From Pleomorphomonas diazotrophica (GTDB lineage Bacteria > Pseudomonadota > Alphaproteobacteria > Rhizobiales > Pleomorphomonadaceae): a DNA stretch of 64,000 nucleotides. Position 1 is the stretch's first letter. Every line of letters starts with the position of its first letter. The notes under the pieces were generated by a model. That model was not told the DNA's origin and did no database searches. It saw only the letters and a list, made by a program, of their open reading frames with translations. Location: contig NZ_PJNW01000005.1 of NCBI RefSeq assembly GCF_002844595.1, forward strand, positions 248,001 to 312,000. Reading direction: 5' to 3'. Positions 50,965 to 61,667 of this stretch are shown here, in pieces. Made by a program: the position numbers and the translations under genes.

Positions 50965-51912
50965 TCAGTCCTTGAGCGCGAAGTTATCGAGCTTGGCGGC
51001 GTTGTCCTTGGTGATCAGCACGCAATCCATGGAGATCTTCTCGGGCTGGCCGGTCTTGCCTTCCTTGAGATACTTGTCGGCCAGCTCGACGGCATACTGG
51101 GCCTGACGGAAGGCCGGCTGCAGGCCGGTCGCATGGATCTTGCCGGCGAGGATGGCGTCGCGCACGTCGTTGGAGCCGTCGAAGCCGGCAACCAGCACGT
51201 CCTTGCGGCCGGCGGCCTCGAGAGCGGCCATGGCGCCCATGGCCATGGTGTCGTTGCCGGAGATCACGCCCTGGATATCGGGGTTGGCCTGAAGGATCGA
51301 TTCCATCTTGGAGAAGGCCTCGGTCTGGCTCCAGTTGGCGCTCTGCTGGGCGACCATCTTCATGTCGGGATACTGGTCGATCACGTCATGGAAGCCCTTG
51401 GAGCGAACTCCGGCGTTGGTGTCGGATTCCTTGCCGACTAGCTCGACGAAGTTGCCCTTCTCGCCCATCGCTTCGACGAAGCTCTCGGCCACCAGGGTAG
51501 CGCCCTGATAGTTGTTGGAAACGATCTGGGCGACGGCGATGCCCGTGGCGTTGATCTCGCGGTCGATCAGGAAGGACGGCACGCCGGCGTCCTTGGCCTT
51601 CTGCACGGCGGCGACGGTGGCGTCGGCGCCCGCGTTGTCGAGGATGATCGCGGCGGCCTTCTGGGCGATGGCCGAATCGATCAGGTCGTTCTGCTTGTTG
51701 GCGTCGTCGTCATGGCTGTAGATCGCCGCCTCGTAGCCGAGTTCCTTGGCCTTGGCCTGGGCACCCACCGCTTCCTGCTTGAAGAAGGGGTTGTCATGGC
51801 TCGGGGTGATGATGACGATCAGCTTGCCATCGGCGGCAAGAGCAGAGGCGGTGAGTGCGATGCCGGCCAGAAGGCCGAGGGAAACCGTCCTCAGAGTATT
51901 GCGAAGCGACAT
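50965..51912 (-). CDS. Ribose-type ABC sugar-binding protein
   Basis: This 315-residue periplasmic protein of the RbsB/Peripla_BP_4 family has a signal peptide cleaved at ALA-ADG. Family landmarks include [47 protein letters not shown] and GFDGSNDV. It is the last gene of the minus-strand operon (DUF2291, ATPase, permease, binding protein). ATG 51912 follows GGAGGAG. The ligand is a pentose-sized sugar or sugar alcohol; the linked isomerase, transketolase and kinase genes are the best guide to which one. Confidence 0.9.
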
Positions 51913-52034
51913 GTCTTTCTCCTCCACTAAAATCCGCTGCACACCTCTCAGCGGGACGCGGTTCACGCCGGGTGACGACGGCCGCGGTTGACGCCGGACG
52001 GGGTTTCGGCCGGCGCCGAATCTCAGTTCAGCTT

Positions 52035-53093
52035 TCAGCCAAGCCGGGCGTTGCGGGCGATGCGGCGCTGCATCTGGTCGAGAATGACCGCGCCGACGAT
52101 GACGACGCCTTTGATGACCATCTGCCAGAACTCGGAAACGCCCATCATCACCAAGCCGTCGGAGAGCACGCCGATGACGAAGGCGCCGACGATGGTGCCG
52201 CCGATGGTGCCGCGGCCACCGGATAGCGAGGTGCCGCCGAGCACCGCCGCCGCGATGGCGTTCATCTCGAAAGTCTCACCGGACGCCGGATGCGACGCGA
52301 CGAGTTGCGAGGCGACAACGAGGCCGGCGATGGCCGCGCAAAAGCCGGAGACCATGTAGACGGCGAGCTTGACGCGGTTGACGTTGACGCCGCTCAGCGT
52401 CGCGGCGCGCTCGTTGCCGCCGACAGCGTAGATCTGCCGGCCGAAGGGCGTCTTGGTGGCGACATAGGCGGCGATCCCGGCGACCACCAGCAACAGCCAG
52501 ATCGACAGGGGAATGCCGAGGATAGTGCCCGAGCCGAGCGTCGGGAAGCCCTGGTTGCCGAACTCCGGCTTGCCGATCAGGTTCGGGAAGGTGGAACCGC
52601 CCGACATCAAGAGCGCCGTGCCGCGAGCAACGTAGAGCATGCCCAGCGTGGCGATGAAGGGCGCCACCTGCATGCGGGTGATCAAGAGGCCGTTGACGAG
52701 GCCGACGAAGGTGCCGACCAAGAGCGCGATGCCGATCACTTCCCAGACGTTAGGGTAGATCACCACGCCGAACATCTCGAGCGGAATGCCGTAGAGCACC
52801 AGGGCGCCGGCCACCATGCCGACCAGGCCGACGATGGCGCCAACCGACAGATCGATGCCGCCGGTCAGGATGACGAAGGTCATGCCGATGGCCAGGAAGG
52901 CGTTGATGGCCACGTGCTTGGATACGATCACCGCGTTGGCGACCGTAACGAAATTCGGCGCCATCAGGCTGAAGAAGACGACGACGGCGATCAGCGCGAT
53001 GAAGGTCCTGAGCTTCAGGAGCAGAAGAAGCAGCGTCGACTGTCCCCTGGGCGCTTCGGCCGCCGGTGTTGCAACGGTGTTGGTCATGGTCAC
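52035..53093 (-). CDS. Ribose-type ABC permease
   Basis: This 352-residue RbsC-type membrane protein has about eight to ten hydrophobic segments. The family loop is [33 protein letters not shown]. It starts at GTG 53093, overlapping the ATPase stop, and the binding-protein gene follows after 122 bases. It forms the channel of a CUT2 monosaccharide importer. Confidence 0.9.
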
Positions 53094-59245: not shown

Positions 59246-60204
59246 TGTCGGCCGCCACCAAATCCGTCGAGGGACTTTACGACTGTCGCGACGCCTTCGC
59301 CAAGACACTCGAGGCGCTGGCCGAGGCCGACGACCGGGTGGTCGCCGTGGTCAACGACAGCGTCGGTTCCTCGAAGCTCGGCGGTTTCAAGAAGCGCTGG
59401 CCCGAGCGCCTCGTCAACGTCGGCATCGCCGAACAGAACATGGTCGGCGTCGGCGCCGGTCTTGCCAATGGCGGCCGCATTCCCTTCGTCTCCTGCGCCT
59501 CCTGCTTCCTGACCGGACGGGCGCTCGAACAGGTGAAGGCCGACGTCGCCTACTCCAACACCAACGTCAAGCTGTGCGGCCAGTCGCCCGGCATTGGCTA
59601 TGGCGAACTTGGCCCGACCCATCACTCGATCGAGGATCTCGCCTGGCTGAGGCCGCTCGCCAACCTCATAACCATCGTGCCTTCCGACCCTTGGGAAACA
59701 GCCGAGGCCGTCCGCTTCGCCGCTGCCTATGAAGGGCCAGTGTTCATCCGCGTCAGCCGCTATCCGGTGCCTGCGCTTCAGCACCGGATCGAGCGCATCG
59801 AGCCGGGAAAGGCCGAGGTGATGCGGGACGGCGATGATGTCGCCATCCTCGCCAACGGCGTCATGCTGCACAAGGCGCTTCGCGCGGCCGAGAAGCTGGC
59901 CGAAGACGGCGTGTCGGCACGCGTCGTCAACATGGCCTGGATGAACCCCCTCGATATCGAGACGATCGTCGATGCCGCTGCCACCGGCGCGATCGTCACC
60001 GTCGAGGAGGCCAGCGTGCGCGGCGGCCTCGGTGGAGCCGTGGCCGAGACGCTTGCCCTTCGTCGGCCTGTGCCGATGGAAATGCTGGGCTTCCCCGGCT
60101 TCGTGCCGACGGGTACGGTCGATTTCCTGTTCGATCATTTCGGGTTGACCGCCGCCGGCATCGCCGCCGCCGCGCGAAAGGCGATCAGCCGCAAGGGGCG
60201 ATGA
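59245..60204 (+). CDS. Transketolase C-terminal subunit
   Basis: This 319-residue protein carries the pyrimidine-binding and C-terminal transketolase domains. The activating glutamate is Glu63 in VGIAEQNMVG. It shares one base with the N-terminal subunit stop (TGATG) and ends in a four-base overlap with the kinase gene. The two halves must assemble for activity. Together with the kinase and isomerase they imply a phosphorylated ketose donor cleaved with glycolaldehyde transfer to an aldose phosphate. Confidence 0.88.
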   Translation: MSAATKSVEGLYDCRDAFAKTLEALAEADDRVVAVVNDSVGSSKLGGFKKRWPERLVNVGIAEQNMVGVGAGLANGGRIPFVSCASCFLTGRALEQVKADVAYSNTNVKLCGQSPGIGYGELGPTHHSIEDLAWLRPLANLITIVPSDPWETAEAVRFAAAYEGPVFIRVSRYPVPALQHRIERIEPGKAEVMRDGDDVAILANGVMLHKALRAAEKLAEDGVSARVVNMAWMNPLDIETIVDAAATGAIVTVEEASVRGGLGGAVAETLALRRPVPMEMLGFPGFVPTGTVDFLFDHFGLTAAGIAAAARKAISRKGR

Positions 60205-61667
60205 TGGACAACACGCTCGTCCTGGCCATCGACCAGGGGACAACCAACACCAAGGCTCTGCTCGTTGACCGGTCAGGAGCGGTGATCGCCTCCGCCTCCC
60301 GGCCGATGACCGTCGACTATCCGCAACCCGGCTGGGCCGAACAATCGGCCGACGCCATTTGGACGGCGGTGAGGGCGGTAGTCGACGAACTGGCTGCCCA
60401 TCCAAGGGCACCTGACATCGCGGCACTGGCCGTTTCCAACCAACGCGAGTCTATCGTCGTCTGGGATGCCGCCACGGGCAAGCCACTCGCTCCCTGCGTG
60501 ATCTGGCAGTGTCGGCGCACCGCGGCGGTCTGTGAGGCGCTGATCGCCGCAGGACATGGCGACCTCGTCGAATCCCGCACCGGCCTCGGCATCAATCCGC
60601 TGTTTCCAGCGAGCAAGATCGCCTGGCTCCTCGATCGCATTCCCGACGGGCGTGCGAGGGCCGCCGCCGGCGCCATCCGTGCCGGCACCATCGACAGCTG
60701 GCTCCTTTGGAACTTCACAGGCGGTGTAGTGCACGCCACCGATCACTCCAACGCCAGCCGAACCCAGCTCTTCGATACCGAGACACTTGCCTGGAGCGAC
60801 GACCTCTGCGACCTGTTCGGCGTGCCCAAGGCAATGCTGGCCGAGGTCAAATCGTCGGACAGTCGTTTCGGCGCAACGGTCGCCGATGTCACCGCCCTCC
60901 CGGCGGGCATCCCCGTGCATGGCATGATCGGCGACTCGCATGCCGCCCTGTTCGGTCACGGCGTGCGAAAGCCCGGCACCGTCAAGGCAACTTACGGCAC
61001 CGGCACGTCGCTGATGTCATTGGTTCCGAAGCGTGTCCGCTCGCGGCACGGGCTCTCCGGAACCATCGCCTGGAGCCTCGGCGACCAGGTATGGCATGCT
61101 CTCGAGGGCAATATTTCGGTATCCGGCCAGACGGTTGCCTTCATGGCCTCGCTGCTTGGTCTCAAGGATGCCGGCGCTCTGGCCGATCTTGCAATGACGG
61201 TCCCCTCGAGCAATGGCGTTACCTTCATACCGGCACTGGTCGGTCTCGGCGCGCCGCATTGGCGCAACGACGTGCGCGGCGAGATCTCCGGGCTCACGCT
61301 CGGCACAGAGCCGGCGCATCTGGCACGCGCTGCCGTCGAGGCAGTGGCCTTTCAGGTGGCCGACGTATTCGCGGCCATGGAAGCGGATATCGGCACCCCG
61401 CTTTCGGGCCTGTCGGTCGACGGCGGCGCCTCGCGCAACGACTTCCTGATGCAGTTTCAGGCCGACATCCTCGGCCGCCCGCTCAATCGCGGCAAGTTCC
61501 CCGAAGTCAGCGCCCTCGGTGCCGCCTCGGTGGCTTTCCATGGACTCGGGCTCGCCATGACCGGCGGCGGCGAAGGGCAGACGCGCTTCGTGCCGACCAT
61601 GCCGGACGAGACACGCGAGGCGCATCTCGCTGGCTGGCGCAAGGCGATGGTTCATCTTTTGGCCTGA
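60201..61667 (+). CDS. FGGY-family carbohydrate kinase
   Basis: This 488-residue kinase has the phosphate-1 motif AIDQGTTNTKALLVD at residues 9-23, PGWAEQSADAIW, the FGGY signature region around GVTFIPALVGLGAPHW and the adenosine motif VDGGASRNDFLMQFQADILG. Several features are glycerol-kinase-like, but the operon points to a ketopentose such as D-apulose or xylulose. It is translationally coupled to the transketolase. It ends the operon, with a strong terminator about 30 bases downstream. Confidence 0.88.
   Translation: MMDNTLVLAIDQGTTNTKALLVDRSGAVIASASRPMTVDYPQPGWAEQSADAIWTAVRAVVDELAAHPRAPDIAALAVSNQRESIVVWDAATGKPLAPCVIWQCRRTAAVCEALIAAGHGDLVESRTGLGINPLFPASKIAWLLDRIPDGRARAAAGAIRAGTIDSWLLWNFTGGVVHATDHSNASRTQLFDTETLAWSDDLCDLFGVPKAMLAEVKSSDSRFGATVADVTALPAGIPVHGMIGDSHAALFGHGVRKPGTVKATYGTGTSLMSLVPKRVRSRHGLSGTIAWSLGDQVWHALEGNISVSGQTVAFMASLLGLKDAGALADLAMTVPSSNGVTFIPALVGLGAPHWRNDVRGEISGLTLGTEPAHLARAAVEAVAFQVADVFAAMEADIGTPLSGLSVDGGASRNDFLMQFQADILGRPLNRGKFPEVSALGAASVAFHGLGLAMTGGGEGQTRFVPTMPDETREAHLAGWRKAMVHLLA

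Follow-up and report, generated by a model that had tools for sequence, protein, structure and literature searches.

A putative D-apiose module of Pleomorphomonas diazotrophica with a predicted AraA/FucI-fold enzyme in the place of the known isomerase

We have analyzed a gene cluster of the alphaproteobacterium Pleomorphomonas diazotrophica, located at positions 50965-61667 of a 64 kb stretch of contig NZ_PJNW01000005.1 (hereafter the window). Judging from homology and gene context, the locus is very probably a complete module for the uptake and breakdown of D-apiose by the transketolase route, with a first enzyme of the fold found in L-arabinose isomerase (AraA) and L-fucose isomerase (FucI). 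This first enzyme is unrelated to the triosephosphate isomerase (TIM) type barrel of the Pectobacterium apiose cluster and yet occupies its place. Apiose, a branched sugar, occurs in pectin (rhamnogalacturonan II) and in plant glycosides.

The open reading frame (ORF) list and the Pfam and NCBIfam searches delimited two divergent operons separated by a DeoR gene. Reading along the minus strand, DeoR is followed by a DUF2291 lipoprotein, the ATPase and the permease of an ATP-binding cassette (ABC) importer and an RbsB-like binding protein. The plus strand encodes a Fucose_iso_C-domain isomerase, a transketolase split over two genes, of which the second starts over the stop codon of the first (59245), and an FGGY kinase. 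All the gene families named in a first-pass annotation of the window (importer, DeoR, isomerase, two-subunit transketolase and FGGY kinase) were found here, and its list had left out the importer lipoprotein (54664-55386). Of 13 other species of the genus, most keep the module; their isomerase orthologues are 80-96% identical in 12 of the 13 and 66-67% in the remaining one. For most module genes the named relatives are rhizobia and other Alphaproteobacteria.

D-apiose is the most probable substrate, because of the homology to clusters of apiose-growing strains, the importer linked elsewhere to oiaX and the apiosidase-like neighbours, all of which support the transketolase route for this sugar proposed in the first-pass annotation. 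Growth on D-apiose is reported for Pectobacterium and for E. coli strains with the apiose cluster (PMC13001218). In strain SE15 this cluster holds the importer, DUF2291, AplK, AptA and AptB. Transketolase subunit A of the window, which has the GDG...N thiamine diphosphate motif, was 46% identical to E. coli AptA and 73% to its counterpart in Rhizobium SL42; for subunit B the values were 41% (AptB) and 66%, and for the kinase 45% (AplK) and 57%. The comparison with apiose proteins that the first-pass annotation had called for gave homologues for these three genes, while the isomerase differs. The AptA and AptB homologues are separate adjacent genes, and the transketolase tree places them well apart from the housekeeping transketolase, where the first-pass annotation had taken a grouping with the latter as an argument against its proposal. 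Within a single clade of this tree the cassettes bearing a TIM-type and those bearing an AraA/FucI-type isomerase were intermixed. A reading of the FGGY kinase as a glycerol kinase was rejected, since its scores lie under both curated GlpK cut-offs (501 vs 590 bits for TIGR01311 and, narrowly, 496 vs 498 for the second model). Apiosidase-like genes (PF13204) neighbour relatives of the isomerase in Listeria, Monoglobus and Pantoea ananatis; others lie close to the cassettes of Phytobacter massiliensis, Kluyvera georgiana and Citrobacter portucalensis. The Listeria locus brings together an isomerase, a transketolase pair, a kinase, a phosphotransferase system and an apiosidase.

The binding protein shares 75% identity with RHE_PF00037 of Rhizobium etli (PDB 4ry0/5ibq), whose operon adjoins oiaX, the gene of 3-oxo-isoapionate-4-phosphate decarboxylase, as is also the case for close relatives in Pararhizobium and Shinella. 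Its identity to the Rahnella, Pectobacterium and SL42 counterparts was 66-71%. The permease was 60% identical to the apiose permease of E. coli SE15 and 65% to that of Rhizobium SL42, the ATPase was 50-55% identical to those of apiose clusters, and a DUF2291 protein also accompanies the importers of E. coli, Pectobacterium and R. etli. Being orthologous to the oiaX-linked system, this importer would therefore be common to two very different breakdown routes. We take the ligand of PDB 5ibq to be alpha-D-apiose, although the paper passages on 5IBQ leave it unnamed, and this assignment was not used as evidence. An improbable alternative is that the module handles another sugar, such as D-ribose, D-arabinose, D-lyxose or an aldose resembling L-fucose, by similar chemistry, the isomerase acting on its usual type of substrate. 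The isomerase fold is indeed that of L-arabinose and L-fucose/D-arabinose isomerases, and the nearest solved binding protein carries the name of a ribose transporter protein. However, the binding protein scored 154 bits where the RbsB equivalog NF007936 requires 337, a cut-off on which its ribose reading was rejected, and a close relative is encoded with oiaX. Equivalent cassettes elsewhere hold the TIM-type enzyme of apiose clusters in the same slot, and the apiosidase-like neighbours also speak against a different sugar.

The isomerase belongs to the AraA/FucI superfamily by its PF02952 domain (E 7e-25) and by its predicted fold. With the AlphaFold2 (AF2) model (pLDDT 77, pTM 0.83), Foldseek retrieved L-arabinose isomerases first (E 7e-21, TM about 0.75, 12-14% identity) and L-fucose isomerases next, while searches of the PDB with the sequence and with its family profile gave no match. 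The residues E308, D332, H348 and H447/H448 (in a numbering that begins one residue before the Met), were invariant among 12 diverse members of the family; we take them to correspond to the metal-ligand positions of AraA and FucI (Glu, Asp/Glu, His). The gene is rare, appearing in 3 other genomes of the class sample and in 3 of the phylum sample (approximately 385-399 genomes each). Its sole NCBIfam match was the sulfoquinovose isomerase SftI (E 2e-21), and a sulfofructose transketolase route exists in anaerobes according to PMC11659671, so that one could think of a sulfoquinovose-type pathway in which this isomerase and the split transketolase act as they do there. We consider this hardly credible: the isomerase reached 76 bits against a cut-off of 700 for SftI (NF048012), on which that identity was rejected, the operon has a sugar kinase, no sulfonate genes were recognised at the locus, and the enzyme is exchanged for the TIM-type one of apiose clusters.

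The isomerase slot of Pectobacterium is taken by a xylose-isomerase-like TIM barrel (PF01261) near-identical to PDB 3ktc. We identify this gene with the published apiose isomerase because PMC13001218 reports that the isomerase gene of the cluster is absent from E. coli, a description that the TIM gene fits. The Pectobacterium enzyme is a TIM barrel and does not have the AraA/FucI fold, so that of the options left by the first-pass annotation our data agree with a variant pathway whose isomerase differs. Cassettes of Yersinia and Pectobacterium have equal gene order and a different isomerase type. In one alphaproteobacterial genome (G059, locus L142) we found a cassette of the Rhizobium SL42 type (binding protein 82%, regulator 83%, transketolase 80% and kinase 71% identical) with an AraA/FucI-type gene in place of the TIM barrel, and the same swap was apparent in another one (G776), there with a different kinase. 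In the Rahnella and Sodalis cassettes an isomerase with 46% identity to that of the window stands beside AptA, AptB and AplK homologues that reach 72-79% identity with the E. coli SE15 proteins, a layout repeated on a Klebsiella plasmid. The types also alternate within Pantoea. Two Rahnella-like cassettes (L102 and L107) are devoid of the AraA/FucI-type gene, and the TIM type appears elsewhere in their genomes. Conversely, no TIM-type orthologue was found in the cassette of the window or in its own genome, which is rated 100% complete.

Of the 80 aptA loci of named genomes, 28 had the AraA/FucI type, 7 the TIM type and 27 a pair of short-chain dehydrogenase/reductase (SDR) genes, never two of them in one locus. 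At the level of whole genomes, where at least 83% identity defined the TIM type, the 49 genomes with aptA included 23 with the AraA/FucI type, 15 with the TIM type and none with both (hypergeometric p = 4.9e-6, shared ancestry ignored). Like the gene content, the predicted fold, the operators and the conservation, the cassette swap and the mutual exclusion are direct results of this analysis. Since the slot is swapped and no genome has both types, the isomerase of the window is best read as a second D-apiose isomerase, non-homologous to the TIM barrel of the known cluster. Beyond this we lean, with less assurance, towards an independent origin of D-apiose isomerase activity in at least two unrelated superfamilies and in more than one branch of AraA/FucI (the proteobacterial one and the very distant one of Listeria and Monoglobus found beside apiosidase genes), the genes being freely exchanged in one slot. 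No paper joining 'apiose' with 'fucose isomerase' appeared in the literature covered, which does not include the original pathway description; that description may already have assigned the AraA/FucI-type family to apiose.

It could also be argued that the isomerase is accessory and that apiose is isomerised by some other enzyme of the genome, e.g. the kind of SDR pair suggested for E. coli, which grows on apiose without an isomerase in the cluster (PMC13001218). Two genomes with an AraA/FucI-type isomerase (L069 and L072) have the SDR pair as well. We find this very unlikely, given that the cassette of the window is without an SDR gene, that the isomerase types swap in one slot and that none of the genomes has both. 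In L051, L069 and L072 the isomerase lies elsewhere than the SDR pair, an arrangement that fits poorly with SDRs simply replacing the isomerase. Other variants were seen. In Marinomonas alcarazii an RpiB/LacAB-family gene (PF02502, L112:11822-12394) comes after aptAB, in the position that the isomerase takes in other cassettes. This genome is devoid of both the TIM and the AraA/FucI-type enzyme, and the RpiB-like gene may therefore be a further solution for the isomerase step. In the 1.4 Mb genome G049 (L143) the isomerase is divergent from AptAB- and kinase-like genes, and the importer is unlike the usual apiose type.

Several observations weigh against our reading of the locus. The transketolase subunits share no more than 41-46% identity with E. 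coli AptAB, and the p-value of the exclusion (4.9e-6) takes no account of shared ancestry. The three genomes mentioned above, L069 and L072 with the AraA/FucI type and L051 with the TIM type, also hold the SDR pair of E. coli type. The isomerase tree gave no supported single clade of apiose-cassette members. Besides, the congeners carry an isomerase paralogue (43% identity) without a nearby transketolase, and the Rahnella isomerase is somewhat closer to this paralogue (51%) than to the enzyme of the window (46%). In the genome of the window the 43% paralogue lies at L127:7278-8693 (contig C4) and is kept in many congeners; a LacI gene is adjacent and an FGGY kinase is found about 4.5 kb away, with no transketolase. 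It has open frames of 470-471 amino acids, so the in-frame TGA codons reported for it probably fall at the edges of the matched region. A further paralogue (36%, L128:8263-12337), also present in congeners and without transketolase neighbours, is followed by an FGGY-type kinase of its own and preceded by a protein of 340 amino acids without Pfam match.

Every substrate and activity in the module we infer from homology and context. The importer would bring in D-apiose, the AraA/FucI-fold isomerase would convert it to the ketose D-apulose and the FGGY kinase would phosphorylate the latter to D-apulose 4-phosphate. With glyceraldehyde 3-phosphate as the acceptor of a two-carbon unit, the split transketolase would then yield dihydroxyacetone phosphate and xylulose 5-phosphate. 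For AplK and AptAB, the chemistry downstream of the isomerase is established knowledge.

The regulatory repeats that the first-pass annotation described as shared by the two operons are real. In the 64 kb the triple CGAWA-N5-CGAWA-N5-CGAWA has exactly two occurrences, one before the isomerase and one before DUF2291, each approximately 45 bases 5' of the start codon of its operon. It precedes the operons in most congeners examined, and in Rhizobium CC-CFT758 the same triple is found upstream of the TIM isomerase (L037:6826). The DeoR protein, which shares 79-80% identity with its counterparts in the TIM-type cassettes of Rhizobium, probably represses both operons at these sites. The coordinates of all these features are collected in Table 1.

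Table 1. Features of the putative D-apiose module and the next regulator (positions in the window)
Feature	Position	Strand	Basis and remarks
Periplasmic D-apiose-type binding protein (RbsB-like), predicted	50965..51912	-	PF13407 (Peripla_BP_4); start from alignment, ORF extends to 51966
ABC permease	52035..53093	-	PF02653 (BPD_transp_2)
ABC ATPase, two nucleotide-binding domains	53090..54667	-	PF00005 x2
DUF2291 lipoprotein, part of importer	54664..55386	-	PF10054
CGAWA triple operator (putative), importer operon	55432..55456	-	Motif scan
DeoR-family regulator	55811..56668	-	PF00455/PF08220; likely start 56668 inside longer ORF
CGAWA triple operator (putative), catabolic operon	56829..56853	+	Motif scan
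AraA/FucI-fold isomerase, proposed D-apiose isomerase	56898..58364	+	PF02952; likely ATG 56898 after GGGAGG
Transketolase subunit A (AptA-like)	58397..59245	+	PF00456 (Transketolase_N); likely start 58397
Transketolase subunit B (AptB-like)	59245..60204	+	PF02779/PF02780 (Transket_pyr/C); likely start 59245
FGGY kinase (AplK-like), proposed D-apulose kinase	60201..61667	+	PF00370/PF02782
LacI regulator of next operon (context)	62041..63018	+	PF00356

Directly before the module (43404-50838) there is an alpha-L-arabinofuranosidase gene with a family-5 peptide/oligosaccharide ABC importer, and a similar-looking arabinofuranosidase ORF begins near the G776 cassette (L171:18156). On the other side, past the end of the window, genes of a sugar ABC importer come after the LacI gene, with a GH127 gene near them (L133:16240-18186, approximately 66239-68185 in window numbering). 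The TIM-type cassette of Rhizobium CC-CFT758 has a GH127 gene close by as well, again near sugar ABC importer genes (L037:13411-15327, 67% identical by tblastn). The GH127 gene near the module may release apiose or arabinose.

If our reading is true, a family annotated just as 'L-fucose/L-arabinose isomerase' acquires a defined substrate, and labels such as 'D-ribose binding protein', 'glycerol kinase' and 'fucose isomerase' could be corrected in many genomes. Surveys of apiose use based on the TIM-type gene would no longer miss such bacteria. The locus would also be a clean example of non-homologous enzyme replacement within a single operon slot, indicating that one pathway step can be filled by interchangeable, unrelated enzymes.

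Among the nearest known systems is the D-apiose transketolase pathway (isomerase, AplK and AptAB) of Pectobacterium carotovorum (Carter et al., 2018, as cited in PMC13001218). Its cluster has the set of genes described here, with the RbsB-type importer and DUF2291, the split transketolase and the FGGY kinase, and differs in the PF01261 TIM barrel instead of the AraA/FucI fold and in a sugar-binding transcriptional regulator instead of DeoR. The cluster of E. coli SE15/ST131 has homologues of the importer, DUF2291, AptAB and AplK, but two SDR oxidoreductases and no isomerase. The plasmid cassettes of Rhizobium sp. SL42 and CC-CFT758 are likewise divergent, and the operator recurs in CC-CFT758. 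Identities amount to 55-71% for the binding protein, ATPase and permease, 35% for DUF2291, 80% for DeoR, 66-73% for the transketolase and 57% for the kinase, whereas the first gene of their catabolic operon codes for the TIM-barrel isomerase. In the oiaX (apionate-type) cluster of R. etli CFN 42 the importer is orthologous (binding protein 75%), but breakdown goes through OiaX and other enzymes, with no such transketolase or isomerase. Finally, the isomerase of the window recalls AraA and FucI themselves by its predicted fold (TM about 0.75 against AraA) and its conserved metal-ligand positions, and differs from them in sequence (12-14% identity) and in gene context.

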